In this document: positions 11,286 through 30,432 of the stretch, piece after piece
How the letters are laid out: the number at the start of each line of letters is the position of its first letter
How positions within the stretch are numbered: the first letter of the stretch is position 1
Source of the DNA: a virus
Length of the DNA stretch: 42,706 nt
IMG/VR virus record: IMGVR_UViG_3300050821_004130
Span: 1 to 42,706 of that record
Direction: 5' to 3' (one strand)
Translations under genes and position numbers: made by a program
The notes under the pieces: model-generated
What the model saw: only the letters and a program-made list of their open reading frames with translations
Told to the model about the DNA's origin: nothing
The model's database searches: none

Positions 11286-12158
11286 GTGTTCTGGCTCGGC
11301 GCATCCCTGCCTGTCCTGAACTGGTTGAGTTTCAGCCTCATTGCGTATTTTCATATAACCGCGCGGGCCCTCACCGGCCCATGGTTCTTCCTGCTACTAG
11401 CGCTCGCGTTCTGGCTCGGGTCCGTCATCACGCTGCGGCCAGTCTTTCGCGGCCTTGCGATCGGGCTGTCGGTTTCGTCCGTCGTCGCGATCGGGCAATG
11501 GTTTGACTGGATCGCTCCTGGAAGCGCCAATCCGCCCGGCGGGCTACTGTATAATTCCGGCGTGCATGCCATCGCCATCGCGATCGTCATTTTGGGGCTG
11601 CTTGCAAACAGGGACTGGCGTTTCATCCCGGCCATGATGCCGGGCCTTCTGCTGTCCCAGTCTCGCGGCGGGTATCTGGTGCTGGCAGTCGGGATCGCCG
11701 CGCGCGCCCTCGGCTGGCCCGCCGTCGTTCTCATGGTGGGGATGGCGGCGGCGGTTTCATTCGCGGTGATGGGGACAACCGATGCCCACCGCCTGCTGAT
11801 CTGGAGCGCGACATGGAACGACCTCGAATGGCTCGGGCACGGCGCCGGCTCGTTCGCCAATGTGCTGTTCTGGCATGGCGATGACCTGCATTATCCCGGT
11901 CACGTCCATAACGACTATCTGCAGCTCGCCTATGAACTCGGCATCTGGGCGGCTCCCGTCTATCTGGTCTATGCTGCGGCGCTGATCCGGATACGCTCGC
12001 CCTATTGGCCGGCCTTCGCGGGATTTGCCGTGGCCGGTCTGTTTTTCTTTCCGCTCTATGCGCCGGTGACGGCCTTCATCGGTGCCGTGCTTGCCGGACA
12101 TATCGCCTGCGATCATGATCGTGTCAAATTCTGGAAAACCGTAAATGCTACTGTCTGA
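11286..12158 (+). CDS. O-antigen ligase/polymerase-like (Wzy_C-type) membrane protein
   Basis: The 290-residue protein is largely hydrophobic, with about eight likely membrane segments. Motifs of the Wzy/WaaL superfamily are present: S-Q-S-R-G-G-Y-L (124-131), R-L-L-I-W (159-163), G-H-G-A-G-S-F (174-180) and the periplasmic-loop H-V-H-N-D-Y-L-Q-L-A-Y-E-L-G (196-209). Bacterial members have about 400 residues, so N-terminal helices are missing. They join sugar repeat units to lipid A core or lengthen O-chains. It uses GTG, has AAGGCGGGAG upstream, and overlaps the tail adaptor by 14 bases. Embedded among virion genes, it may change the host surface to block superinfection or help release. Confidence 0.85.
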   Translation: MFWLGASLPVLNWLSFSLIAYFHITARALTGPWFFLLLALAFWLGSVITLRPVFRGLAIGLSVSSVVAIGQWFDWIAPGSANPPGGLLYNSGVHAIAIAIVILGLLANRDWRFIPAMMPGLLLSQSRGGYLVLAVGIAARALGWPAVVLMVGMAAAVSFAVMGTTDAHRLLIWSATWNDLEWLGHGAGSFANVLFWHGDDLHYPGHVHNDYLQLAYELGIWAAPVYLVYAAALIRIRSPYWPAFAGFAVAGLFFFPLYAPVTAFIGAVLAGHIACDHDRVKFWKTVNATV

Positions 12159-16965: not shown

Positions 16966-18443
16966 GCGATACCTCTGCGGCCAGCACCCCGCCTCCTGTT
17001 TTCTCGCCTAGCGGGCAGCTACAGGGCAATCTCACTGGCAACCAGGGACAGCCGCCCGCCCCGGCCGGAGCTTCCCCGCTTGCGCAGCCATCGCCTCTAG
17101 CCGAGCTCGGGGCGCCGCCTCAGCCTACGCCACCACCTCAGTTGCCGAAGGTGAATTATCCTCCGATGCCCCAGCAACCACAGTTTCAGCAAAACAAGGA
17201 TCCTCCCCCAGACGCCAAGGACTATCAAAAGGGAGCAATGGATTTTGCCGGTGCCATGGCGGTGCTTGGGGCTGTTGCAGGCCGCTTTACACGCGCGCCA
17301 GGCGGCGCTGGCCTCGCCGCTTTCGGTGCAGCATTGAAGGGTTGGCAGACCGGCAATTTGCAAGCCTATGAGAACGCCGCGAAGGAGTGGGAGCAACACA
17401 CCAAGCAGGCACTTGATAATAACAAGATGCTGATGGAAAAATATAAGCTCGCTCTTGAAGACCGCAAGATGAACATAGACGAGCAGATGAGCAAGATACA
17501 GGAGATTGCGACGCAATATCATCACCAGATGATGTACGACGCCGCGGCGGCCAAGAACTATACGATGGTGGCGCAGATCTACGAAAAGAATGTGCAGTAC
17601 ACCGAAAAGGCGAAAGAGGCCGCGGCCAAACTTCAGGAAAAGCGCGAATCCGATACGGCTAAGGCCGAGCAGAGCGGGGCATACTGGATGTCTCCGCAGG
17701 GGACATATCGGTTAGAGCAACCGTCGCGAGACCCATCTATACCATATCAGCAAAATGGACCGCTTACGGACGCTGAAAAGCTGAAAGTTAAGGGGTTGAT
17801 TGAACTCTACGGCCAGAAGCAGGTCGGAAAGTCGGCGATCGCGAACGACCGCAAACAATTTATTGATGAATTTACCTCCGAAAATGGCCGCCCCCCTACA
17901 AATAAGGAGATAACTGCTTGGGAAGGCGAACGCTCCGGGACTATCGCGGAGGGTGGAGCAATAGGACGCCGCGCTGGCAATATCTCTATAGCGGTGCAAG
18001 AAGCTCACGACACCGTTCCGAATGTCATGGCAGCAGCTGAAAAGAGCGCCGGGCGCGGCACGGCAACTTGGAATAAGATCGAAAACAAGTGGAATGTTGA
18101 AAAGGGAGACGAAAACTTCGCGTACTATGTGCAGCAGTTGAATTCTCTCATCAATGTCTACGGGCGCGTGATCTCGGGCGGAGGCAAAGGCACGGTTTCC
18201 GATTTGGAGCACGCTCGCGAGATGCTTAATCCGAATATGCCTCTCTCTGCCGTCAAAGGCTCGCTTAGAGGTTTCACGACAGAAATTGATATTGCTGAAA
18301 AAGCTCCGGAAAAAGTACGCGCCAGAATTCGTGGAGGTCAGCAAACGGAAGGTGGATCACCCACTGCCGCCGAACCGCCTGCGAACAGTGCCGAGCCTTC
18401 TAAAATGTCTGACGAGGATCTCAAGAAAAAATTGGGTCTTTGA
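16962..18443 (+). CDS. Probable middle ejection protein
   Basis: The 493-residue protein has a Pro-rich unfolded N-terminus (to about residue 90), a hydrophobic Gly/Ala-rich part near residues 90-130, a long coiled-coil region (about 135-240, rich in Lys, Glu, Ala) and a C-terminal helical domain. This matches internal proteins that form a channel across the envelope. No lysozyme-type catalytic motif was seen. It is coupled by ATGA upstream and TGATG downstream. Confidence 0.65.
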   Translation: MSDTSAASTPPPVFSPSGQLQGNLTGNQGQPPAPAGASPLAQPSPLAELGAPPQPTPPPQLPKVNYPPMPQQPQFQQNKDPPPDAKDYQKGAMDFAGAMAVLGAVAGRFTRAPGGAGLAAFGAALKGWQTGNLQAYENAAKEWEQHTKQALDNNKMLMEKYKLALEDRKMNIDEQMSKIQEIATQYHHQMMYDAAAAKNYTMVAQIYEKNVQYTEKAKEAAAKLQEKRESDTAKAEQSGAYWMSPQGTYRLEQPSRDPSIPYQQNGPLTDAEKLKVKGLIELYGQKQVGKSAIANDRKQFIDEFTSENGRPPTNKEITAWEGERSGTIAEGGAIGRRAGNISIAVQEAHDTVPNVMAAAEKSAGRGTATWNKIENKWNVEKGDENFAYYVQQLNSLINVYGRVISGGGKGTVSDLEHAREMLNPNMPLSAVKGSLRGFTTEIDIAEKAPEKVRARIRGGQQTEGGSPTAAEPPANSAEPSKMSDEDLKKKLGL

Positions 18444-20464
18444 TGGCCGAAGATCGTGCCGCCTTACTCGATGAAGCCAATCGCCGGGGTCTGTTGCCGC
18501 CCGACATGGCGTCTGCCTATGCGGAGGCCAAAAAAAGGGATTTGATAAAGCCGGGCGGCGTGATGGAGCGTCTCGGCACAGGGTTCATGGATCCGGTGTA
18601 CGGTGCCGCACAGATCGGCGCACGGATGACGGAGGAAGGATTTTCAGCCGACCCTGAGGCGTCAGAAGCCCAGCGTCAGGAGCGCATACAGACCGTCGAT
18701 ACGGCGGTCAAGGAGCGCGAAAAGTCGATCGAAAGCAAGCGGCCGGAATCGCAACGCGGCAGTACGGATTGGCTGCGCGCCGCCGGCAGCGCTCCGTCGA
18801 CCATCGCACTTACGGCACCGCTATCGGTTTTCGGTGGAATTCCCGGTGCAGTCGCGGCCGGCGCGGCCGGCGCGGCGATCCAGCCAACCACCGATACCGA
18901 GCATTTTGGGTCAGAAAAAGCTAAAGCGAGCGTGGTAGGTGGTGTTTTTGGTGGGGCGATCGGGGCCGGGGCAAAGGCCGCTGGCGCCGGTGTACGCGCG
19001 CTCGGCGATTGGCTGGCCCGCGAGTATCCCGAAAACGTCATGACACAGGCGGTTAAGAAGATCCTGAAACGGATGGGGCAGGATCAGGCCGCGGGCGGGC
19101 CTACGGCAACACAGGCAATCGATCTCATCAACGAAGCCAATCAGATCGGCCCCGGTGCGAGCCATAAGCCGGTCACGCTGACTGATGTCGGCGGGGAGAA
19201 TGTCAAAGCCTTGGCTGGCAACGTCGCGCGACAATCCGGCGAAAGCCGGAATATCACCCGATCGTTTTTGGAGGAAAGAGACCAGGGCGCAGCGCCCCGC
19301 ATCCAGGCTGACATCGATCAATACATCCACGGCGGCCCGAGCATGCACCAGACTACGCAGGCCCTTATCGAGGCCCGCAGCGCGGAGGCGAGACCACTCT
19401 GGAACGAAGTGCGCCAGATGCAGGGCGTGTGGAGCCCACGCCTTCAGCAGTTTGTGGAAGACCCCTCGATCCGGGCAGGAATGGCGCGCGGTTACGAGAT
19501 CGAGCGGCTGGAGTCACTTGCCGAGAACCGCCCTTTTGACCCGACTCAGATGGGTGTTGATCTCGACAACGAGGGCAACATTCGGATGATCCAGTCTCCA
19601 AATATGCGCGTCCTGCACATGGGGAAAATGGGCTTGGATGCGATGATAGCCGACGAGCGCAACGAGATCACGGGGCGCCTGTCACAGCGCGGTGTGGCGC
19701 TGGATCGGGTGCGCCGGGCCTATCTCAACGAAATCGACAGTCTTGATCGAACGGGCATATATCGGCAGGCGCGTCAAGCGTGGGAGGGACCATCGGCTAG
19801 TATGGATGCAGTGCGCGCTGGCCGTGCCGCGTTCACGTCCTCTCCGGAAGAAATAGCAGAGGAATTCAATGGGCTGTCTCCGGCGAATCAGGAGTTCTAT
19901 CGGATCGGTGTTGCCGATAACATCAGGGAGCGCCTGATGAAAACCGGCGTATCCGGCGATGAGGCGAAGGCAATCATTAAAAATCCGTGGATGCGCGATC
20001 AGATGCGGCCGATCTTCCGCAGCGAAGCTGATTTCAACGGGTTTGTGGATGCCGTGACCCACGAGGGAAACATGTTTCGAACCAACACCGAAACGCTCGG
20101 AGGGCCCGCTACCGCGCGCAGAATAGCAGAGGACACTTCCGCAGAAAATGCTATGGCAGGCCACGGCATGCATCTCGCCGAGCAAACCGCGACAGGATCT
20201 TGGATTGGCGCCGCCAAGACTGCTATCCGCATGTGGCGCGACCGTCAGGATGCCAAGGGAAATCCTCGCCTCAACGAGCAGATATCCAGAATCCTATTTC
20301 AGACGCCGATTGATCCGGCGAGCGAACTCGGTCAGCGACTGACCGGCCAGTTCACCGGGCCGGCAGGTGTCAATCGCCTCGGAACAGCGGCGGATGTCGT
20401 CGGACAAAGCCCGCTTGTGTTGGCACCTGGCGCGGGGTCTGCCCTAGCGCAGCCGACACAATAA
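18443..20464 (+). CDS. Large ejection/internal virion protein
   Basis: The 673-residue protein opens with L-L-D-E-A-N-R-R-G-L-L-P-P-D-M-A, a domain found at the N-terminus of several internal virion proteins as I read it. Two Gly/Ala-rich hydrophobic segments follow (about residues 110-185), typical of membrane-entering ejection proteins. The rest is long, charged and helical. It is the last of three consecutive ejection genes. The ATG at 18443 overlaps the previous TGA. No enzyme domain is recognised. Confidence 0.65.
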   Translation: MAEDRAALLDEANRRGLLPPDMASAYAEAKKRDLIKPGGVMERLGTGFMDPVYGAAQIGARMTEEGFSADPEASEAQRQERIQTVDTAVKEREKSIESKRPESQRGSTDWLRAAGSAPSTIALTAPLSVFGGIPGAVAAGAAGAAIQPTTDTEHFGSEKAKASVVGGVFGGAIGAGAKAAGAGVRALGDWLAREYPENVMTQAVKKILKRMGQDQAAGGPTATQAIDLINEANQIGPGASHKPVTLTDVGGENVKALAGNVARQSGESRNITRSFLEERDQGAAPRIQADIDQYIHGGPSMHQTTQALIEARSAEARPLWNEVRQMQGVWSPRLQQFVEDPSIRAGMARGYEIERLESLAENRPFDPTQMGVDLDNEGNIRMIQSPNMRVLHMGKMGLDAMIADERNEITGRLSQRGVALDRVRRAYLNEIDSLDRTGIYRQARQAWEGPSASMDAVRAGRAAFTSSPEEIAEEFNGLSPANQEFYRIGVADNIRERLMKTGVSGDEAKAIIKNPWMRDQMRPIFRSEADFNGFVDAVTHEGNMFRTNTETLGGPATARRIAEDTSAENAMAGHGMHLAEQTATGSWIGAAKTAIRMWRDRQDAKGNPRLNEQISRILFQTPIDPASELGQRLTGQFTGPAGVNRLGTAADVVGQSPLVLAPGAGSALAQPTQ

Positions 20465-20475
20465 AGGTAGGTTCC

Positions 20476-20658
20476 ATGGGTGATCCGGCTGACGATAACT
20501 TCCTGAAGGATCTTGAGAATAGCGTGCGCGCTATCATCAAGAACAAGAAATCGACCAAGGCCGATAAGCTGTCTGCGATCAATGCGGGAATCAAGATCGC
20601 CGCCATAAAACATAAGATTTTGGGCGGGGATAGCGAGAAAGGGTTTTTCGATAAATGA
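20476..20658 (+). CDS. Small helical protein
   Basis: A 60-residue charged, helical protein (F-L-K-D-L-E-N-S-V-R-A-I-I-K-N-K-K) with a C-terminal acidic/aromatic end. It is coupled by ATGA to the following two-helix membrane protein. Such pairs often sit before lysis genes. No function assigned. Confidence 0.68.
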   Translation: MGDPADDNFLKDLENSVRAIIKNKKSTKADKLSAINAGIKIAAIKHKILGGDSEKGFFDK

Positions 20659-20918
20659 CCGATCCAACACCGCTATTCGCAGAACGTCAGCCCGGTCCCG
20701 CAGCAGAGCAGGACGTTGGGCCGTCCTTCATCGAAATGGCCCGCGCCGTCGCGTCGATCGCGGCCACGCGCATGCTGCTGCTTATCACTGTTATGACAGG
20801 TGCGGCGATCTGGATTTTCACTTGCTACGATCCTACGCGCGATCGTCTCTACGCTGCGATTTCGTTCTCAATCGTGTTCGTGGTCCCGCAAGTCTCGCTC
20901 TATTGGCGGAAGGGTTAG
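20655..20918 (+). CDS. Two-helix membrane protein, holin-like
   Basis: The 87-residue protein has two membrane segments (about residues 40-58, starting at M-L-L-L-I-T-V-M, and 65-84) with a short loop and a basic C-terminus. Size and topology fit a small holin. Since a second candidate (23172) lies right after the endolysin, one may be a holin and the other an antiholin or a different membrane protein. Confidence 0.65.
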   Translation: MTDPTPLFAERQPGPAAEQDVGPSFIEMARAVASIAATRMLLLITVMTGAAIWIFTCYDPTRDRLYAAISFSIVFVVPQVSLYWRKG

Positions 20919-20920
20919 AC

Positions 20921-21229
20921 ATGGCATCAACCTATCCGAGCCCAACCGCCATTGCCACACCCACTGTGACCAACGCGAGCATCCAAGTCGCGCCCGTCAA
21001 TCTATCGCGTGCCGCACTCTACGTCTTCAATCCGTCTGCAACCATTACGCTTTGGGTAACCGCTACTGGCACTGCGGCCGCGGTCAACGGCGCGGGCTGC
21101 GTCGCCGTGCAGCCTGAGCAGGGGATTTATTTCGGGCCACCTACCATGGGTCAGTGGACGAACGGCATGAACGCAATCGCCTCGTCGGCAGGAAGCAATG
21201 TGATATGCGTACTCGAGTTTTATCAGTAG
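20921..21229 (+). CDS. Small beta-rich virion or fibre-like protein
   Basis: A 102-residue Thr/Ala/Val-rich protein with the pattern R-A-A-L-Y-V-F-N-P-S-A-T followed later by G-I-Y-F-G-P-P. It resembles the 10218 product in layout (R-x-x-V-x-I-x-N, a beta hairpin, then a Gly-rich turn). No signal peptide is present here. The ATG at 20921 comes two bases after the previous stop. Its end overlaps the start of the Gly-rich adhesin by 25 bases. It may be a small tail or head-fibre subunit. Confidence 0.68.
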   Translation: MASTYPSPTAIATPTVTNASIQVAPVNLSRAALYVFNPSATITLWVTATGTAAAVNGAGCVAVQPEQGIYFGPPTMGQWTNGMNAIASSAGSNVICVLEFYQ

Positions 21230-22473
21230 CGGCAGCATTATTTTTCTGGATTAGCGCGGCGGTTGCTCAGCCGGTTACTGTGATTGGGCCAATTACTGCT
21301 GGTGATTGTCCCCAATTTTCTTCCAATACCGTCATCAAGGATAGTGGATTTAACTGTAATGGCACGCCGGCCGTGTCGTTTGCAAATCCGACAGCAACGG
21401 CAGGCCCGACAGCAAATAATGGCTCGGCCACTACGGCTATGCGCTCAGATGCTTCGCCAGCGGTACAGAAAGGTACGAATTCTCAGTTTGGTTTGGTGCA
21501 GGGAGATGGCACAACGATTTCATGTTCTACGACGCCGGGTATTTGCGTCGCTCTGATCAATGGCATTTTTCCTACGCCGACACGCTCCGGTGATGTGGCA
21601 GTCTGGAACGGATCTCAGTGGACTACGCTGGCAGGCAATAACTCAGGAACGCAGGTTTTTAGCGAAAACGCTTCTGGCGTTCCGTCTTGGGGGTCAGTTG
21701 GACTTGGAAGTGTTACCGAACAGAAGAATACGGCAAGCGGTGGTCTCGTCACCTCCGGCAATTGCGATAACACCACGACTAATGCGTCTAGCCCGTGCAA
21801 CTATGCGCTGACAACGGCGCGGCAGACGCTGCCGACCAAGCAGGTCTTCACGTCAAGCTCCGGCACCTACACGACGCCTGCCAATGTGTTGTGGATCGAA
21901 ATTGATTTTGTCGGCGGTGGCGCGGGCGGTGGCGGCGGCAATTCGGCAAGCGGATCGACAGCTGGCGGAGGCACATGCTGGAATACGACGGGCGCAGCGT
22001 GTACGTCCCCGGTCTATGAAGCGGGTGGCGGCGGTGCGGCGGCGAATTCAGCCGGTGGGACTGGCGGAACTATATCGGGCAGTAGTGCCTGCGACTGGTC
22101 GGTTCCTGGCGGCATAGGATCGTCCGGCTCAAGCTCGGTGGCGTCCACAGTTGCCGGACTTGGCGGTGCAGGCGGGTCAAGTTCACTCGGCGGCCAGGGC
22201 GGCGCTGTATTCGGTAGCGCAACAGGCAGCGCAGCAGCGACCAACAGCGGCAGCGGTGGCGGCGGGGGTGGTCAGAGTTCATCAACGTCTGGGGAGGCCG
22301 GCGCTGGCGGCGGGGCCGGCGCGACCTGCCATGTCGTGATCGGAAATCCGGCGGCGTCTTACACTTATGTCGTTGGATCTGGCGGGGCTGGTGCCGCGGG
22401 CGGATCGAACGGGGGAACCGGTGGCGCCGGCGCGGCTGGTCACATCGTTGTCTATGAACATTATGGAAGCTGA
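21205..22473 (+). CDS. Exported glycine-rich fibre/adhesin
   Basis: The 422-residue protein has a Sec signal peptide ending A-A-V-A-Q (about residue 22). A segment like those in tail fibres follows (N-G-S-A-T-T-A-M-R-S-D-A-S-P-A-V-Q-K). From about residue 215 to the end is a glycine-rich domain, introduced by G-T-Y-T-T-P and closing with G-G-A-G-A-A-G-H-I-V-V-Y. Gly-rich domains of this kind form stacked polyglycine helices in some phage receptor-binding tips. The ATG at 21205 has AGGAAG upstream; the longer frame from 21154 has no such site and lacks the signal. The signal peptide is unusual for a fibre. Confidence 0.75.
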   Translation: MRTRVLSVAAALFFWISAAVAQPVTVIGPITAGDCPQFSSNTVIKDSGFNCNGTPAVSFANPTATAGPTANNGSATTAMRSDASPAVQKGTNSQFGLVQGDGTTISCSTTPGICVALINGIFPTPTRSGDVAVWNGSQWTTLAGNNSGTQVFSENASGVPSWGSVGLGSVTEQKNTASGGLVTSGNCDNTTTNASSPCNYALTTARQTLPTKQVFTSSSGTYTTPANVLWIEIDFVGGGAGGGGGNSASGSTAGGGTCWNTTGAACTSPVYEAGGGGAAANSAGGTGGTISGSSACDWSVPGGIGSSGSSSVASTVAGLGGAGGSSSLGGQGGAVFGSATGSAAATNSGSGGGGGGQSSSTSGEAGAGGGAGATCHVVIGNPAASYTYVVGSGGAGAAGGSNGGTGGAGAAGHIVVYEHYGS

Positions 22474-22474
22474 T

Positions 22475-23170
22475 ATGATCATTCCCACCTCACATGACAC
22501 GACGTTCATCCCGTACATCGTCGGGACCGATCCGGAATTCGACCAGATCCTTCCGCTCACTGAAATCCAGGAAGGTCCGGTGCCGTGGATATCGGGACCG
22601 GCACCAGCGAAAGACTTTTCGAACGACGAACACGACCCCGGCGGCGCGACGGAAGAAGGCGTCATCCAGAACGAATATATCCGCAAGCGAAGACAGTGGG
22701 GGTTGCCGATCCAGTCCGACAAGCTGATGACGAAGGACGAGGAGCGGACGATCTATTTCACCGACTACTGGATGCCGCATTGTCCGCATCTGCCGCCTGG
22801 TCTCAATCTTGAATTCTTCGATCTTGATGTCAACGGCGGCGAGACTCGCGCCGTTAAGACACTGCAACGTGTCCTCGGCGTCACGCAGGACGGCTTGTGG
22901 GGCAACCAGACACAGGCTGCGCTCGACGCCGAAGTCGTCAAGGGAAAATCCACGATCGAGGCTATGATCGTCGCGTACCGCGATGACCGAGAGGCATTCT
23001 ATCAATCGCTGCCGACCTATCGTTACTTCGGCGGTGACTGGTCGCGGCGAACATCGCAGATCGGCGACGAGGCGGAAGCGATGGAGGAACGATCAGAATC
23101 GCCGGGACTGAAAGCCGCGCTGGACGATTTCACCAATAATCCACCAAAACCGATAATGAAGGAGACTTGA
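22475..23170 (+). CDS. Endolysin, GH108 N-acetylmuramidase
   Basis: The 231-residue protein matches the glycosyl hydrolase 108 family: the catalytic-Glu motif I-Q-E-G (Glu33) and D-P-G-G-A-T (residues 54-59) lie in the N-terminal part. The C-terminal peptidoglycan-binding domain contains F-F-D-L-D-V-N-G-G, L-Q-R-V-L-G-V and D-G-L-W-G-N-Q-T (about 114-149). The family cuts the glycan strand of the cell wall at the end of infection. No signal peptide is present, so a holin is needed. The ATG at 22475 has GGAAG upstream; 22454 and 22463 are alternatives that overlap the previous gene. Confidence 0.88.
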   Translation: MIIPTSHDTTFIPYIVGTDPEFDQILPLTEIQEGPVPWISGPAPAKDFSNDEHDPGGATEEGVIQNEYIRKRRQWGLPIQSDKLMTKDEERTIYFTDYWMPHCPHLPPGLNLEFFDLDVNGGETRAVKTLQRVLGVTQDGLWGNQTQAALDAEVVKGKSTIEAMIVAYRDDREAFYQSLPTYRYFGGDWSRRTSQIGDEAEAMEERSESPGLKAALDDFTNNPPKPIMKET

Positions 23171-23171
23171 T

Positions 23172-23522
23172 GTGTTTAAGAATATTACGCAGACGCAGTG
23201 GGTCGCCTTCATCATCGGAGCGGCAAGCTTCATCGGCGGGTCAACTGCTCAACTCACGACGTTGGTAGGACCTAATGGTGCAGCCTACGCGGCCTCGGCG
23301 TGCGCGCTTATCTCCGGCCTTGCCGGCGTGTTCCTCATGGCAACGACCGGACAGAGTTCGATGGTGCAGCAAGTCGCGGCTTTGCCGGGCGTCTCGCGGG
23401 TGGCTATCAATGAGAACGCTAGCAAGGATGTTGCCTCTGTCGCGACCGACCCGGCGCAGCCAAAAGTCGGGCCAGTGACTCCTGAGATTCGTGCAGTATT
23501 GGTTGCAAAAGCCGCGTCATAG
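23172..23522 (+). CDS. Holin candidate
   Basis: The 116-residue protein has two membrane segments (about residues 10-31 and 36-58) and a soluble, charged C-terminal tail. It follows the endolysin directly, separated by one base, starting with GTG. Size, topology and place fit a holin that opens the inner membrane for the endolysin. The family is not recognised from motif alone. Confidence 0.72.
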   Translation: MFKNITQTQWVAFIIGAASFIGGSTAQLTTLVGPNGAAYAASACALISGLAGVFLMATTGQSSMVQQVAALPGVSRVAINENASKDVASVATDPAQPKVGPVTPEIRAVLVAKAAS

Positions 23523-23597
23523 TTGCTTTTGGGTGACAGTTTTGAGGGTGATTCAGGCTTAACTTGCAGCCGTTTCAAACCTCAAAGGAGTAGGATA

Positions 23598-24290
23598 ATG
23601 AAAGCGAAATTTCTGATCTTGGCGGCGATGATTTTCGGTTCTCCGACATTCGCCGCTGATCTTCCTACGAAGGCCCTCACCGCTCTAACTTCTGGGTATC
23701 CAACCAAGTGCGGCGCTTACTATGGTATCGGCACCGGCGGTAATGCTGGCGCGGTGACGGGAGCCAATGTCGGCACTCAGATCGTGCAGGGCGATATCGA
23801 CGCGCTGATCGGCTATACCTGTCCGTTCGCCGGTAATGCCTTCTGGTTTGCCGAAGTGCAGGGCGGCTTCTCAAATCTCAACGGCAACACGAACGGCCTT
23901 TCGCTTTCCGGTCCCGGTGTGTTCATCGAACGCGCGGGTGTCGGCTCTCCGATCCAGCAGTATCTTTCCGGAATCCTTCCCAATCTGAATCTTCCGGCGC
24001 TTCCCTCGCTGCCGTCGACTCCGGGTGCAACGCCGAACCCGTCACCCGCGCAGTACGCGTTTGCCGGCATCGTCGAGCAGGATTTCGGCGCACAGGTTGG
24101 CAGCGGTGCAGGGCACAATTGGGTGGTAGCACCAATCATCGGTCTCGGTCTTCTGACGCGCTACTCGAACAACATGGTGATCGACACCTGGGCCGGTTGG
24201 CAGATGAACGCCACGAACGCGATCTGCATTGGCACAAACTGTGTGAAGCCGGGTAATATGGCCCGCGTAGGATTATCTTTGAAATACTGA
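23598..24290 (+). CDS. Exported protein with outer-membrane beta-barrel features
   Basis: The 230-residue protein has a strong Shine-Dalgarno (AAAGGAG), a Sec signal peptide (cleaved after about residue 20, P-T-F-A-A) and a mature part with alternating polar and aromatic residues. The chain ends A-R-V-G-L-S-L-K-Y; an aromatic last residue is a classical outer-membrane protein targeting signal. Four Cys residues could form two disulphides. A Pro-rich insert lies in the middle. It looks like a bacterial surface protein picked up by the phage and may alter the host surface. The barrel call is inferred. Confidence 0.7.
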   Translation: MKAKFLILAAMIFGSPTFAADLPTKALTALTSGYPTKCGAYYGIGTGGNAGAVTGANVGTQIVQGDIDALIGYTCPFAGNAFWFAEVQGGFSNLNGNTNGLSLSGPGVFIERAGVGSPIQQYLSGILPNLNLPALPSLPSTPGATPNPSPAQYAFAGIVEQDFGAQVGSGAGHNWVVAPIIGLGLLTRYSNNMVIDTWAGWQMNATNAICIGTNCVKPGNMARVGLSLKY

Positions 24291-24297
24291 ACGCACC

Positions 24298-24323
24298 GCG
24301 GCCCGACCTCAAAATCGGGCCGC
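24298..24323. other. 9-bp stem-loop after the outer-membrane-like gene
   Basis: GCGGCCCGA and TCGGGCCGC form a perfect 9-bp stem around an 8-base loop. No T-run follows, so efficient intrinsic termination is doubtful; an RNA-stabilising or attenuator role is possible. Confidence 0.6.
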
Positions 24324-24343
24324 CCAACTCATAGAGGGCGAGC

Positions 24344-24748
24344 ATGAAGCGATTATCTGTCATTCTGTTTCTGCTTTTGGCCACGCCCTGCGCTGCGCAG
24401 CAGTCACAGCCCTTTCATCTGATTTCGGCGGCGTCTACCAACTGCACGAACATCAAGCCTGCGGCGGGCCAGCTCGTCACCGTGTTCGCGGCTAACACTA
24501 CCGCCACGATCTACTATCTCAAATTCTACGATAGCGCGTTGTCACCTCCGGTCGCTGGCACCACGACGGTATCGCTCACACTTCCGATCCCGGTTGGCAC
24601 ATCCTCAACTGGAGGCGGGTTCATCTTGCCCCTTCCACAGGCGGCTCAATATCTCAACGGCATCGGCATGTGTATCACAGGCGGGATTGCGGACAGCGAC
24701 ACGTCAAATGCCGCAACTGGAATCGCGGTCGACGTGTTTTTTAAGTGA
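24344..24748 (+). CDS. Exported beta-rich small protein
   Basis: The 134-residue protein has a Sec signal peptide (M-K-R, a hydrophobic core and A-A-Q near residue 19). The mature part is beta-rich with two Cys, ending in a Val-Asp-Val-Phe-Phe-Lys strand. It follows a ribosome site GAGGGCGAG. Layout resembles the 10218 product (R-x-V-x-V-F, G-T-T-T-V-S-L). It is part of a run of exported small proteins. Function unknown. Confidence 0.72.
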   Translation: MKRLSVILFLLLATPCAAQQSQPFHLISAASTNCTNIKPAAGQLVTVFAANTTATIYYLKFYDSALSPPVAGTTTVSLTLPIPVGTSSTGGGFILPLPQAAQYLNGIGMCITGGIADSDTSNAATGIAVDVFFK

Positions 24749-24755
24749 GGCATCT

Positions 24756-24926
24756 ATGCCTATCCTAAAATGGCTGATTCCGTTTTTGCTTCTAGCCAGC
24801 GCCGCATCCGCACAATTGATGATGACTGGATATGGCCCATCTGGAGCTGGAGGAGGAGCAGGCGGCTGCTCAGGGACAATCGATCTTTCTAAGGGGTGTG
24901 CTTTACCCATGCTCGGAGGATTATAA
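24756..24926 (+). CDS. Exported 56-residue Gly-rich peptide
   Basis: A 56-codon gene with a ribosome site (GTGAGG) and a textbook signal peptide (M-P-I-L-K-W-L, hydrophobic core, A-S-A-Q near residue 20). The mature part has only about 36 residues with a G-A-G-G-G-A-G-G stretch and two Cys. It is followed without gap by the 24927 gene. A small secreted peptide or fibre add-on is possible. Confidence 0.68.
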   Translation: MPILKWLIPFLLLASAASAQLMMTGYGPSGAGGGAGGCSGTIDLSKGCALPMLGGL

Positions 24927-25667
24927 ATGCGTAAGATACTTGCAATCCTGGTGCTTGCGCTGTTTGTCGCTCCAGCATCAGCTCAGAACTATAACGCTAC
25001 GGCGGGCTCTGGTCTAACGTTCGGTGCTAAATCGGTTTCGTCAGTCCTTTATCCGCAATGGGTTCTATGCGATCCGACGACGCCGGCAAACTGCGGGAAG
25101 GTACAGGCTGGCAATGCTGCAGGCATTACTGACCTGGCGCTTACCGTCGCCGACCCCAACGTCCTGTCTGCGCTGAACACTCTGAATACGACGGCTCAGG
25201 TGCCAATCCCGGTCATCGCCGGAACGCTGCCCTCGACCCAGACTCCGGTCACAACCGGGTCTACGACCAAGGCCCAAACCGACCTCAACGGTAACCTCTA
25301 TGCCAACCCGGTTTCGCAGTATCCGGCCGGTTCAACGCCTATCACAGCCTCCGCTACGGGCACCACGGCTGCAACCACAGCCACTCTGACCGGAACTTCA
25401 ACAACGACAGTCTATCTTTGCTCTTACTCAATCCGTGCCAACGCTACCGCAGCCACGACGGTATCCAATACGATCACGGGCGTCATCACGGGCACGCTCA
25501 CGCACACCATGTGGGTTGCTCCACTGGCTTCCGGGCTCGGCATCGATGAGCAATTATTCGTTCCGTGCGTGCCTGCAAGCGGAACAAATCAGGCTATTGC
25601 GGCGGTCTCAGGCGCTCCAGGAAGTGGCGGTACGGTTTCTGTGACAGCGACGGGCTACTACAAATGA
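24927..25667 (+). CDS. Exported tail/fibre-like protein
   Basis: The 246-residue protein has a Sec signal peptide (cleavage after A-P-A-S-A-Q, about residue 20). Its middle contains K-A-Q-T-D-L-N-G-N-L-Y-A-N-P, and the C-terminal part is a Thr/Ala/Gly-rich beta domain with Y-L-C-S-Y-S and L-F-V-P-C-V-P-A-S. I recognise these patterns as common in tail-region proteins of alphaproteobacterial phages. It starts directly after the preceding stop and overlaps the next gene by ATGA. Confidence 0.72.
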   Translation: MRKILAILVLALFVAPASAQNYNATAGSGLTFGAKSVSSVLYPQWVLCDPTTPANCGKVQAGNAAGITDLALTVADPNVLSALNTLNTTAQVPIPVIAGTLPSTQTPVTTGSTTKAQTDLNGNLYANPVSQYPAGSTPITASATGTTAATTATLTGTSTTTVYLCSYSIRANATAATTVSNTITGVITGTLTHTMWVAPLASGLGIDEQLFVPCVPASGTNQAIAAVSGAPGSGGTVSVTATGYYK

Positions 25668-26587
25668 AGCGCTGGTTGATCGCCCTCACGGTCTCTCTGG
25701 GTCTGCTCGCGCCTGCGGCTGCGTTATGGCAGAGCAGGGATAGTAATTATAATGTGGCGATCTCTAGTGGCGGCGGTTCTTGCACGGGCGGGACTCGCAC
25801 CACCTCAAGCGGCAATACCATCATCACGTTCACGGCGAGCGGCACATTAACCTGTACAGCTCCATTTACCGCAAACGCCTTGCTAGTTATAGGCGGTGGT
25901 GGCGGTGGAGGCGGTGCCACTGGTGGTGGTGGTGGTGGTGCTGGCGGCTATTGCGCGGTTGGATCATCTCCGACATGCGGACTTGGCTCAACATTTTCTG
26001 TGTCATCTGGATCGACAACTGTAACAGTTGGTGCAGGTGGTTCTGGCGCATCGACTACTGGAGTGGGGGCAACTGGATCAAATTCGGTTTTCTCGACAAT
26101 TACCGCGAACGGCGGTGGTGGTGCTGGAGCGCAGAATACGACGACAGCTCCCAACGGGGGCTCTGGCGGCGGTTGCGGAGCTACAAGTACCAGTAGTTGC
26201 ACGGGCGGGACTGGAAGTCAGGGCCATAACGGTGGCAATGTCACCAACACGACGACCCCATTTGCTGCTGGCGGTGGGGGCGGTGCCGGTGCTGTCGGAG
26301 GAACTGCAAGTACCACTGGCGTTGCGGGCGCGGGGGGCACTGGAGTTTCCAATTCCATTTCTGGTTCTTCAGTAACATATGCTGGCGGTGGCGGTGCGAC
26401 ATGCTTCTCCATCAGTGGGTGCACAGCTGGGACGGGTGGCAGTGGAGGTGGCGGCGCAGGAAGTCTGGGTTCTGCAAACAGCGGAACAGCAAACACTGGT
26501 GGTGGTGGCGGTGGCGCTGGAAGCGGAGCTGGTGGCACCGGAGGCTCTGGCATTGTTATTATCAGCTGCGTAACTGGAAACTGCTGA
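25664..26587 (+). CDS. Second exported glycine-rich fibre/adhesin
   Basis: The 307-residue protein has an N-terminal Sec signal (M-K-R-W-L-I-A-L, then A-P-A-A-A). After about residue 55 it resembles the 21205 adhesin: a beta strand into A-L-L-V-I-G-G-G-G-G-G-G, then long Gly/Ser/Thr-rich repeats, ending G-G-S-G-I-V-I-I-S. The two are probably paralogous Gly-rich tips. The DNA of this part is strongly repetitive, so local assembly errors are possible. The start at 25664 overlaps the previous stop and is supported by the signal peptide. Confidence 0.75.
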   Translation: MKRWLIALTVSLGLLAPAAALWQSRDSNYNVAISSGGGSCTGGTRTTSSGNTIITFTASGTLTCTAPFTANALLVIGGGGGGGGATGGGGGGAGGYCAVGSSPTCGLGSTFSVSSGSTTVTVGAGGSGASTTGVGATGSNSVFSTITANGGGGAGAQNTTTAPNGGSGGGCGATSTSSCTGGTGSQGHNGGNVTNTTTPFAAGGGGGAGAVGGTASTTGVAGAGGTGVSNSISGSSVTYAGGGGATCFSISGCTAGTGGSGGGGAGSLGSANSGTANTGGGGGGAGSGAGGTGGSGIVIISCVTGNC

Positions 26588-29500
26588 TGCTGCATTTTAA
26601 AATCAGTAGTTTCTTGCCACGAGTGATTCGATTCGCTGGAAAAGAGATATCTGAAAAATCAAAAAATCGATTTTCGTTTCATGCCATCTCCAAAGTTATC
26701 GTTTTCGCAAGTCTCTTGCTCCCAGCGTCGTCAGATGCGTGGTTTCCGCACGGCTATGTCGCTCCTTCAGGGGCTAGTAAAGCCCGCCTTGTTCAAAATA
26801 TAAATTCATACGGCGGCGACGTGTGGATGAACATGGCGCCGAATTTTCCGGTGCGCTTTGGTGGATCGCTTACGCCCGCAAATCTAAGTTCTCTTGGGTT
26901 GCCGTCTGGAACATTGCCCAATCAGTCAACTTTTAATAGCGCCTCGGTTTCCCCGAATTACTATGGTCACTACACAGTCAAATCGACTGACATTTCAGGT
27001 TTTGAGTTAAACGGCTATTCGACCATTATCTATAGCGGGGGGCAGCAAGTCTACCCGAGTCTAAGTGCCGGATACGGAACGTCACCGGGATCGACGACCT
27101 TCCTCAACAATGGCGCGTGGAACATTGAGTTCGCCTTTGGCGAAACACTCACTACTGTTCAGAATAGTGCTACTACACCTGGTCTTGTCGAGCTGATCGC
27201 GACGGATTCAAATGGCTTCAGTCCGCTCAGCACAGGTTCTCAAGTCCAAATTCACAACGTCTCTAATCTCAGTTCAACAACGATTTGGACTGTCACCAAG
27301 ATCAGCAACTCTACGATCGACCTTCAGGGCTCGGTGTGGAGTTCCTCGATGGTGCCGGCGACGGGCGTGCCTGGCGTTGCCGCAGAAGCAATCTTTAGCA
27401 CGTCATCTGTTTCTTACGCGTGGTTGGCCTCCATTCCGACCTTCGGCACTGTCAACCATACGATCAGCAGTTTTGTGTTCTCCCGCACGTCTGACGTTGC
27501 CGCCATTACGGCCAGTAAATACGCGACACCTGAAATCGTGTCGTCGCTGACGACGCTCGGGCCGCCGAAATATCTGCGAATGATGGATATCCAAGCCATC
27601 CAATTCGTGCCCCTCAATGGGCTTTTTTCAAATCGTATAACCCCGTCAAATTACGCGTTCTATGAAGTCGGCGGAAACAACGGAGCGTGGCTGCCTCAGC
27701 TTTATGGCGGCACTTCATCTCATGCGACCAGCGGCGCCGTCACCACCTATACCATCAGTAATGGTTCGGGATCGCCAAGCGGCGCTTTTCAGGATAGCGA
27801 AACCATCCAATTTGAAACCGACGCCGCAGCGTCGGGTCAGCTCGCACTAGCTGTCACGGGGAGAAACGGCGGCGTTTCGGCGCCGGTCATCACCAACAGC
27901 TATATGGAGCCGCTTAATATCACGCTAGGCGGGTCGATCACCAATGGTGATGTGATCAGCGTCACCTTTATCAACGCCAAGCTGCCAACGGGATCATACA
28001 CATTCAACTATTACGTCAATACGGCGGCGGCAGCATTCAGCGGAACGACATCAAGCAACGTCTTGACGGTTACCGGAACCTGCACGGGAACGATCACGCC
28101 AGGTCAAGTCATCACGGGCACAAGCCTAAGCAATGCCCCCTATATTCTGCCCTACGGCACGAACGGTTCGACGGGGGCCGGCTGCGCCGGAACCTATGTG
28201 CTCAATATCGCGCCGATCGGGACAACCACCATCACAGGGTCAACCGGGCAGGCCGGCGGCTCGGGCGGAAGCAAGGGCCCCGACACGTCGTTCGGGAGTC
28301 TTGACTCGAACTTTTCTACCAGCCTAAGCGAAGACGTTGTTCTAGGAGCGGCCGGGTTTCAATTCGGCAATAACTCGGGCGCAAGCGTCTTCTATTCGCC
28401 CGCGTACCTTGGTCCTCTCACAGTCTCCGCATCTGTCAGCGGTTCTGCGACCGAAACGGTCGCGCCGACAACGGGAGCACTATCCGCTAATACCTTTTAC
28501 AGTGCGCAATACGTCGCCCTCTTAAACGCGTGGGTGGTTACTAGCTCCGGCCTGGTGAGCGGGGCGCCATTTGAATTGATGGTTGATCTGTGCAAACAGG
28601 TCGATTCGGGCCTCTATATCCAAATTCCGCTTAACTATACGCAGGCGTCAGCGGTGGATCTCGGTCAATGGTTGGCCACAAATGCCTCAGGAATTCAAAT
28701 CGCTGTGGGCGCCGGCAACGAAATTTGGAACACTGGGGAAAGCCAAAACCATACCGCAGCAGCTCTTGGCGTCGCGATCGGAACGACAGCGGTTGGCGAT
28801 GGTCTTTTCTATCGGTCACCCCTTAGCTATCAGGGTTGGTTAGAGGCAAATATTGTCAACACCGTTGTGAGTAGTTATGTCTCAAACGGCGGTTCTCGTT
28901 CCAACATCATCTTGGTGCAAGAGAATAGTGCAGCGGACGGACAAGGCGGCGTTGGCGGTTGCGGACAGACCAACTGTTCAATGGTGCTATCACACTGGAA
29001 CGGGCAAACTCTGACGCCAACGGGCGGCACCTTTACCGGCACCATCACATCAAATCCGAACGGTCTTGGAGCACTGCTGACGGTCAGTAGCTTAAGCGCC
29101 AATGGCGCAATCTATCCCGGCATGACCATTACGGGATCTGGCGTCACGGCCGGCACGCACATTTCCAGTTGCATGCCGGCGTTGTCCTACTGTACCGGAA
29201 ATGGGACCTATCAGCTAGACACGGCATATGGATCGACCGTCGGTCCGATCTCTATGACGGCCAACAATGTGATCTATGCTGCGGTCGGAGGTCCTGGAGC
29301 GACTTCGACGAGCACTAGCTACAACGCCTTCCCGACACGCCCCGTTGATCTCGCCGACGCGGAGAGCTACGCAACCTACTTCACTGGTCAAAGGATAGGT
29401 GAGGGCTCGGGCTCGATCACTGGTACGCAATCCAACTTTAACACGCTGTTCACCGCCAGCCAAAATTACGCACAGGGCGTAGCAACCAGCAACGCCTCAT

Positions 29501-30432
29501 TGATCACCAGTGCATTGACGGCATGGAGCGCTGACGTAAATATCAACGGACAGATTTGCAGTTTCTTACTGAAGAGCCCGAATTACACCAGTATTTGCGG
29601 CAACACCGGAAGTTCTGCGTATGGCGTCGTCGATGGGTTTCATGCTGACGTTGCCGCCTATGATGGTGCAGGCAGGCCGACCGGCAAAGCCAATCTAGGC
29701 ATCATTCAATATGAAGGTGGCTTGCAAGAAAGTTTCGGACCGGGAATTCCAACCATCAACGGGACATTTCTTTCGACGAGCTACACGGACGGCGGAAGCC
29801 AGAACGCTCTCAATAATCAGTTCGTCAGCAATGGATGGGTGAATCTCGACGCCAGCTTTGGCTACCCAGGTATAGGCACGAGTTCGACATTCACTGGAAC
29901 TTCGTCAGGTGCCGTGCTTACGGTGACGGGTCCAACTGGACAGATTATTCCCGGACAGACCTTGCAAGGCAGCGGCCTTACAAATTCGCCCTATATTTTG
30001 GCATATGGCACGCTTGGTACCACCGGAACCGGCGGCGTGGGTACCTACCAATTAAACACAACGCCGACCGGGACAACGACCTTCACGGGATCATCTGGGG
30101 GCAGCTATCTTACCGCAGTCAACATGGTGACGCTGTTTCTGGCCTATTTGAACAGCAGCTATTACTACAACGATGTTCTGTTCCTGCATCAGCAATCGGA
30201 AATCATGAATGCTGACCGCCCATTCTTTTATATGTCTCAGTATGGACTTGAGGGCGAGTTTGCGACGCCGAACGCCGCGCCGCTGTGGGGTTATTACCCA
30301 GGATTTTTAGCTTCGACTCCGCTTCAGAACTACAATGCATTCAAATTTCTTAATACCAATTGGCTTCTCAAGCGCGATCTTGATCCAGCGTCAAACGACA
30401 ACGATCCGATGTGGCTGGAGAAGGCTGCGTAG
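26587..30432 (+). CDS. Large tailspike-like glycosidase with inserted beta repeats
   Basis: The 1281-residue protein begins with a long basic region then a hydrophobic signal-like segment (about residues 36-55, V-I-V-F-A-S-L-L-L-P-A-S-S). A glycosidase-like core is suggested by G-N-E-I-W-N (Glu712), as in retaining TIM-barrel glycosidases, and Y-E-G-G-L (Glu1043), a likely second acid. Three related inserts of about 65-80 residues occur near 483-555, 813-890 and 1101-1170. Each has L-T-V-T or L-T-V-S, then P-G-x-x-x-x-G and a late G-T-Y-x-L. Likely a polysaccharide-degrading adsorption protein; the substrate is unknown. Confidence 0.72.
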   Translation: MLHFKISSFLPRVIRFAGKEISEKSKNRFSFHAISKVIVFASLLLPASSDAWFPHGYVAPSGASKARLVQNINSYGGDVWMNMAPNFPVRFGGSLTPANLSSLGLPSGTLPNQSTFNSASVSPNYYGHYTVKSTDISGFELNGYSTIIYSGGQQVYPSLSAGYGTSPGSTTFLNNGAWNIEFAFGETLTTVQNSATTPGLVELIATDSNGFSPLSTGSQVQIHNVSNLSSTTIWTVTKISNSTIDLQGSVWSSSMVPATGVPGVAAEAIFSTSSVSYAWLASIPTFGTVNHTISSFVFSRTSDVAAITASKYATPEIVSSLTTLGPPKYLRMMDIQAIQFVPLNGLFSNRITPSNYAFYEVGGNNGAWLPQLYGGTSSHATSGAVTTYTISNGSGSPSGAFQDSETIQFETDAAASGQLALAVTGRNGGVSAPVITNSYMEPLNITLGGSITNGDVISVTFINAKLPTGSYTFNYYVNTAAAAFSGTTSSNVLTVTGTCTGTITPGQVITGTSLSNAPYILPYGTNGSTGAGCAGTYVLNIAPIGTTTITGSTGQAGGSGGSKGPDTSFGSLDSNFSTSLSEDVVLGAAGFQFGNNSGASVFYSPAYLGPLTVSASVSGSATETVAPTTGALSANTFYSAQYVALLNAWVVTSSGLVSGAPFELMVDLCKQVDSGLYIQIPLNYTQASAVDLGQWLATNASGIQIAVGAGNEIWNTGESQNHTAAALGVAIGTTAVGDGLFYRSPLSYQGWLEANIVNTVVSSYVSNGGSRSNIILVQENSAADGQGGVGGCGQTNCSMVLSHWNGQTLTPTGGTFTGTITSNPNGLGALLTVSSLSANGAIYPGMTITGSGVTAGTHISSCMPALSYCTGNGTYQLDTAYGSTVGPISMTANNVIYAAVGGPGATSTSTSYNAFPTRPVDLADAESYATYFTGQRIGEGSGSITGTQSNFNTLFTASQNYAQGVATSNASLITSALTAWSADVNINGQICSFLLKSPNYTSICGNTGSSAYGVVDGFHADVAAYDGAGRPTGKANLGIIQYEGGLQESFGPGIPTINGTFLSTSYTDGGSQNALNNQFVSNGWVNLDASFGYPGIGTSSTFTGTSSGAVLTVTGPTGQIIPGQTLQGSGLTNSPYILAYGTLGTTGTGGVGTYQLNTTPTGTTTFTGSSGGSYLTAVNMVTLFLAYLNSSYYYNDVLFLHQQSEIMNADRPFFYMSQYGLEGEFATPNAAPLWGYYPGFLASTPLQNYNAFKFLNTNWLLKRDLDPASNDNDPMWLEKAA

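Follow-up and report, generated by a model that had tools for sequence, protein, structure and literature searches.

Cleavable export signals at the tail-fibre position of a tailed-phage genome suggest that fibres mature across the host membrane before joining the virus

The fibres of tailed phages are assumed to fold in the cytoplasm and to be attached there, and the locus described here raises the question of why a run of genes at a tail-fibre position should begin with signal peptides. The stretch of DNA analysed (the window), 42,706 bases long, is a complete IMG/VR virus record and encodes, from left to right, a serine recombinase, large terminase, portal-like protein, major capsid protein, virion structural proteins and ejection-like proteins, followed by the exported cassette. 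The serine recombinase (1040-1555, + strand; Resolvase, E 1.8e-44) lies directly 5′ of the terminase, and given its presence the phage may be temperate. The closest named capsid relatives were two Manatee Spring phages (55-57% identity), and the one host clue for the lineage was a distant prophage in Azospirillum soli. Direct searches of GenBank phages with the 12 kb cassette DNA, 23598, 24927 or 25664 (genes are named by their start positions) returned no match. Located among the structural genes was a multi-helix membrane protein (11286-12158, +) with weak similarity to O-antigen ligase (Wzy_C, E 1e-3), the homologue of which in a related viral locus (L002:8901-9926; Wzy_C, E 5.6e-6) sits within the exported-gene run of that locus; from these similarities, a function in surface-polysaccharide modification is possible.

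The cassette occupies a fibre-type gene position, after the tail hub and ejection genes and within the late operon. The ejection (internal virion)-like protein (18440-20464, +; phrog_5880, PHROGs E 9.7e-40) served as the marker for finding relatives, with 6 and then 32 viral loci fetched, which were mostly uncultured contigs with approximate gene calls. It is followed by a small two-helix membrane protein that is a possible second holin (20655-20918, +; from sequence, with no significant family) and by a 102-aa small virion-like domain (20921-21229, +; phrog_22789, E 5.8e-7). The latter had no signal peptide, nor did its 74% identical homologue, L027:14042. With the exception of this 102-aa product, all candidate fibre genes 3′ of the ejection genes in the window are predicted to be exported. 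These comprise a fibre-like protein with 10 Cys and a variable Gly-rich C-terminus (21205-22473, +); a 118-aa mature domain containing NTTATIYYLKFYDSA (24344-24748, +), homologues of which lack a signal peptide in cultured phages (PBR31_00029, KSC gp046, S2B gp004c, and DB2_15); a short peptide of 37 aa when mature, with 2 Cys and the motif QLMMTGYGPSGAGGG (24756-24926, +), which resembles the post-signal motif of the Tat-type L004:11601; a fibre-like protein with 4 Cys (24927-25667, +), the C-terminus of which is 64% identical to the end of L002:10320-12260; and a Gly-rich protein with 10 Cys (25664-26587, +; Gly_rich_2, PF21722, E 1.5e-18; phrog_2295, E 2e-45) that is related to the phage tail family phrog_863 (E 3.9e-6). 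A 1281-aa protein (26587-30432, +) closes the run. As a first-pass annotation had claimed, the lysis genes lie among the exported ones, namely a GH108 endolysin with PG_binding_3 (22454-23170, +; PF05838, E 1.9e-12; PF09374, E 3.5e-6; phrog_315, E 8.7e-26) and a holin-like two-helix membrane protein (23172-23522, +), recognised by sequence and by homologues that adjoin a barrel gene in loci L005 and L013.

That annotation had also proposed at least six genes with Sec signal peptides, and signal-peptide prediction, which could have contradicted it by finding none, gave six passing genes, at each of the proposed starts (21205, 23598, 24344, 24756, 24927, and 25664). A home-made rule on n-, h- and c-regions served to call the signal peptides, and 6 of 407 residue-shuffled proteins pass it (1.5%). 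All six had a short basic n-region, a hydrophobic core and an A-x-A-like site, with Q as the next residue in four, and the predicted cleavage sites were AVA/Q (21205), TFA/AD (23598), CAA/QQ (24344), ASA/Q (24756), ASA/Q (24927), and AAA/LW (25664). Among the 31 forward genes between 517 and 30432, the only other gene to pass at its called start was the holin-like 23172, because of its first transmembrane helix. For 26587, in which a signal-like segment had been noted, we found the hydrophobic stretch and a cleavage-like site (VIVFASLLLPASSDA/WF), preceded by a 37-residue basic n-region; it fails the rule because this n-region is too long, and a signal is therefore plausible but uncertain. No start codon with a Shine-Dalgarno sequence was found at the cleavage sites, which therefore give no sign of a cytoplasmic isoform, and dual targeting via an internal start at the cleavage site was rejected on this basis.

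The export trait extended across the lineage. In the nine closest relatives, the rule was passed by 22 of the 71 forward genes that lie downstream of the ejection marker, versus 3 of 71 upstream, one of the latter being a false positive because it is a capsid protein, while 0 of 61 opposite-strand genes passed. Chance hydrophobic N-termini were accordingly rejected by the shuffles, the opposite strand and the upstream genes, and the cassette proteins are very probably exported, as judged from sequence. The exported sets differ among relatives, with up to seven members in L024 and five in L027. In 21205 the segment right after the signal peptide (TVIGPITAGDCPQFSSNTVIKDSGFNC) recurs in L027 as TVIGPITPGDCPFFNSTTVIKDSGIPC, with looser versions in L025, L024, L029, and L030; relative to L025 and L027 the N-terminus is conserved and the C-terminus variable, whereas the resemblance to L024, L029, and L030 is at the motif level only. 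A conserved post-signal segment with a differing remainder is the usual pattern of a putative fibre anchor with an exchangeable tip. The same cassettes also contained small exported coiled-coil-like proteins (QQPPSQVDPVLMQQAIAALQAQ) that lack Cys (L024:12355-12681 and L027:16017-16349). In related phages, Tat-type (twin-arginine) signals were observed on fibre- or enzyme-like proteins (L008:3717-7217, L008:1616-2587, L004:11601-12362, and L011:8684-9550).

If these proteins do reach the periplasm, their composition might be expected to reflect it. Mature exported proteins contained 15.9 Cys per 1000 aa versus 4.4 in the conserved proteins that these phages do not export, and among proteins with at least two Cys the number was even in 34 of 37 exported proteins versus 17 of 30 others. 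A first parity count, of proteins with any Cys, gave 34 of 41 (binomial p 1.3e-5), although homologous members were included, so that independence is overstated. Such Cys richness and even parity are as would be expected for disulfide-bonded periplasmic proteins, and disulfide formation in the exported proteins is likely on this evidence. The hydrophobic N-termini could be imagined to be retained, as virion anchors or membrane-active peptides, with no export at all, given that the same fibre families occur without a signal and that cleavage here is a prediction; however, the canonical A-x-A sites, the even Cys counts and the Tat-type signals in equivalent genes (RRDF in L008:3717, RRRF in L004:11601) make this very improbable, and anchors would lie buried behind a hydrophobic segment.

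Export in this operon need not mean incorporation into the virion, because one of its products is not a fibre. The first-pass annotation had treated the interval as a run of exported fibre- and adhesin-like proteins, which holds for the six signal peptides but not for 20921, lacking one, or for 23598 (23598-24290, +), predicted to be an exported OmpA/Ail-type eight-stranded outer-membrane beta-barrel and not an adhesin fibre. The AF2 model of 23598 had eight strands at modest confidence (pLDDT 65), and its best Foldseek matches were OmpA, Ail, OprF, NspA, and OmpX (E <= 6e-4 for OmpA, Ail, OmpX, and NspA). Relatives were found in ten viral contigs (51-76% identity), with more distant ones in L024 and L027; 23598 and most homologues have a signal peptide, and the C-terminal residue was Y or F in all ten aligned sequences of the family (in 23598, RVGLSLKY). 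Comparison with the Lom/Ail sequence families gave no Pfam or PHROG match. A recently acquired host outer-membrane protein gene was rejected as the source: a search of 385 genomes from the class that includes Azospirillum gave no hit to 23598 at E <= 1e-10, a weak result since the search had no positive control, and a search of genome contigs gave no confirmed relative. The spot directly 3′ of a holin is often that of spanins. The barrel gene occupies it in the window, L005, and L013, and no spanin was found in the late region of the window, nor were lipoprotein signals of the spanin type (o-spanin lipobox) found there or in the cassette. With no such lipobox, 23598 may carry out the outer-membrane step of lysis in a different way; receptor masking is another possible role.

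The barrel also bears on the main rival to virion attachment, which is export without attachment, whereby the proteins would decorate or leave the infected cell (as receptor-masking proteins, a capsule-degrading enzyme, and the barrel) and serve to shield progeny from re-adsorption or to open the surrounding polysaccharide before lysis. We consider this a real but rather unlikely possibility. It is favoured by the fold of 23598, which fits an earlier suggestion that the infected cell is coated, at least for this protein, and by the fact that phage-encoded barrels are common in BFVD. It is also favoured by glycosidase-like motifs in the large 26587 protein, in which GNEIWN (710) and QYEGG (1042) suggest a retaining clan-A glycoside hydrolase; the motif pair has similar spacing in L008:3717-7217, the Tat-type protein with RRDF, and no Pfam or PDB sequence match was found for 26587. 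These motifs aside, the proposal that the exported set modifies the community around the host gained no specific support. In L015 and L016 the last 24 residues of 26587 (30358-30432, ending LLKRDLDPASNDNDPMWLEKAA) recur at 96% identity; these two loci agree exactly with each other over this end and have unrelated upstream sequences, a pattern that likely marks a recombination seam closing the fibre module on its 3′ side. Also in favour of this rival are Pantoea WceF, a tailspike-fold enzyme able to act on biofilm glycan (PMC7949094), and PBR31 gp40, an exported SGNH esterase and possible lysis aid that carries the sole signal peptide mentioned in the PBR31 paper (PMC10975493).

With regard to timing, the exported genes, the GH108 endolysin and the holin-like gene are all on the + strand, with junctions of 75 nt or less and several overlaps, and are therefore late-operon genes. 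Barrels such as Lom are classic lysogenic conversion genes. With a serine recombinase present and the phage possibly temperate, the cassette could be seen as host-surface genes expressed from a prophage, but the genes overlap and pack tightly in the late operon, and promoter-like and terminator-like sites across the cassette were no commoner than in shuffles. This layout therefore indicates a single late block and not scattered conversion genes, and we regard lysogenic conversion as improbable.

Searches of Pfam and PHROGs found no known virion-anchor domain at the N-terminus of the exported proteins of the window, and the connection to virions was instead drawn from other, mostly distant phages (L048, L040, L076, and L079). 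In L048:11632 a signal peptide precedes the tailspike anchor ATLLPPGEQVFLDNNGQPL (ATLLPPGEQVFLDNNGQPLSGG), the same anchor that starts at the initiator Met in Pam1, PBR31, X14, P26218, BA3, and other podoviruses. In 9 of 80 viral loci a signal peptide runs up to the anchor or stops just short of it, and all nine signal peptides have different sequences; the strict rule calls six of them, and the other three, scoring 3.9 to 4.1, were recognised by inspection. This fraction is not a prevalence, since the 80 loci were the top matches to L048 and the nine include the contig of L048 itself. Most phages with this anchor domain carry no signal peptide, and the anchor proteins with one had a higher Cys content than the rest (p = 0.005). 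Two of the nine, L076 and L079, combine signal peptide and anchor with Phage Tail Collar domains that score over the Pfam cut-off, L040:13501 has a signal peptide joined to a pectate-lyase-like helix, and L009:15352-19179 (- strand) encodes 1275 aa with a Sec signal peptide and a C-terminal Peptidase_S74 tail-spike chaperone domain. Among cultured phages, BcepC6B gp19 ('tail fiber') and PBR31_00035 have a common signal peptide and N-terminus (55% identity), and the C-terminal domain that they share is also found at the end of tail fibres without a signal in Pectobacterium and Enterobacter phages; 21205 matched these two at 36-43% identity over 30-39 residues (E about 0.02-0.04), at which level homology is unproven. 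Export without attachment leaves the signal peptides before intact virion-anchor and Tail Collar domains in these phages unexplained and gives no place for the window's own receptor-binding protein.

Taken together, cleavable export signals at a tail-fibre gene position suggest that fibres are moved across the host membrane, mature there and only then join the virus. The best explanation, to which we give an even chance, is that fibres are exported, become oxidised in the periplasm and meet the virions at lysis. The cassette would then supply receptor-binding fibres or spikes, an envelope enzyme and the outer-membrane barrel, made late together with the lysis proteins. On the basis of sequence features, each protein would pass through the host Sec translocon and lose its signal peptide; Cys number and parity suggest folding and disulfide formation in the oxidising periplasm, and the fold of the barrel suggests its insertion into the outer membrane. 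Virions would be assembled and filled in the cytoplasm, and fibres would dock once holin and endolysin had opened the inner membrane and wall, such that the receptor-binding parts reach the virion at the moment of lysis. That at least some exported fibres attach to virions, probably at lysis, seems to us about as probable as the reverse, as extended to the window's proteins from other phages. The full two-compartment scheme, in which DNA-filled particles without fibres wait in the cytoplasm while fibres are exported, disulfide-bonded and attached only at lysis, is more tentative and falls somewhat short of even. The first-pass idea that fibres gain something in the periplasm was thus strengthened indirectly, by lineage-wide signal peptides, high and even Cys counts and signal peptides fused to tailspike anchor and Tail Collar domains elsewhere.

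If this is true, the fibres need host Sec, SPase I and disulfide enzymes to mature, particles still inside the cell are unable to bind receptors, and lysis and fibre attachment are coupled. Moreover, some of the 'secreted' proteins of prophages and viral contigs would be virion parts, mistaken for host adhesins in current annotation. No description of exported tail fibres in tailed phages was found in open-access full text, the closest being the signal peptide of PBR31 gp40, and the description of the cassette as an undescribed system is fair within that text for the fibres but not for the outer-membrane barrel.

Indeed, 23598 resembles the phage-encoded Lom/Ail-type barrels of many uncultured Caudovirales in having a Sec signal, eight strands and an aromatic C-terminus, and differs from them in its lack of a Pfam or PHROG match and its location directly after the holin. 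With the anchor tailspikes of podoviruses (Pseudanabaena Pam1, Xanthomonas PBR31, Shewanella X14, and Rhodoferax P26218; anchor 'ASLLPNGKQQFxDxNGxPLxGG'), the system shares its place in the genome, behind the ejection proteins and close to the lysis genes, and, in the relatives, the build of an anchor with variable receptor-binding or enzymatic domains behind it. However, those tailspikes start at Met with no signal, whereas the variants start with a signal peptide, and the proteins of the window lack this particular anchor. Burkholderia BcepC6B gp19 and Xanthomonas PBR31_00035 (a putative structural protein) likewise have a signal peptide on a fibre-like protein, located between tailspike and holin in cultured podoviruses, but as a single gene versus the run in the window; as cultured phages that may show the trait, they make the exported-fibre idea directly testable. 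Finally, the coat proteins pIII and pVIII of filamentous phages are made with signal peptides, and these virions assemble at the membrane. The proposed reading would place the exported fibres alongside them as virion proteins with signal peptides, in a phage whose capsid and DNA packaging are, unlike those of filamentous phages, of the tailed-phage type.
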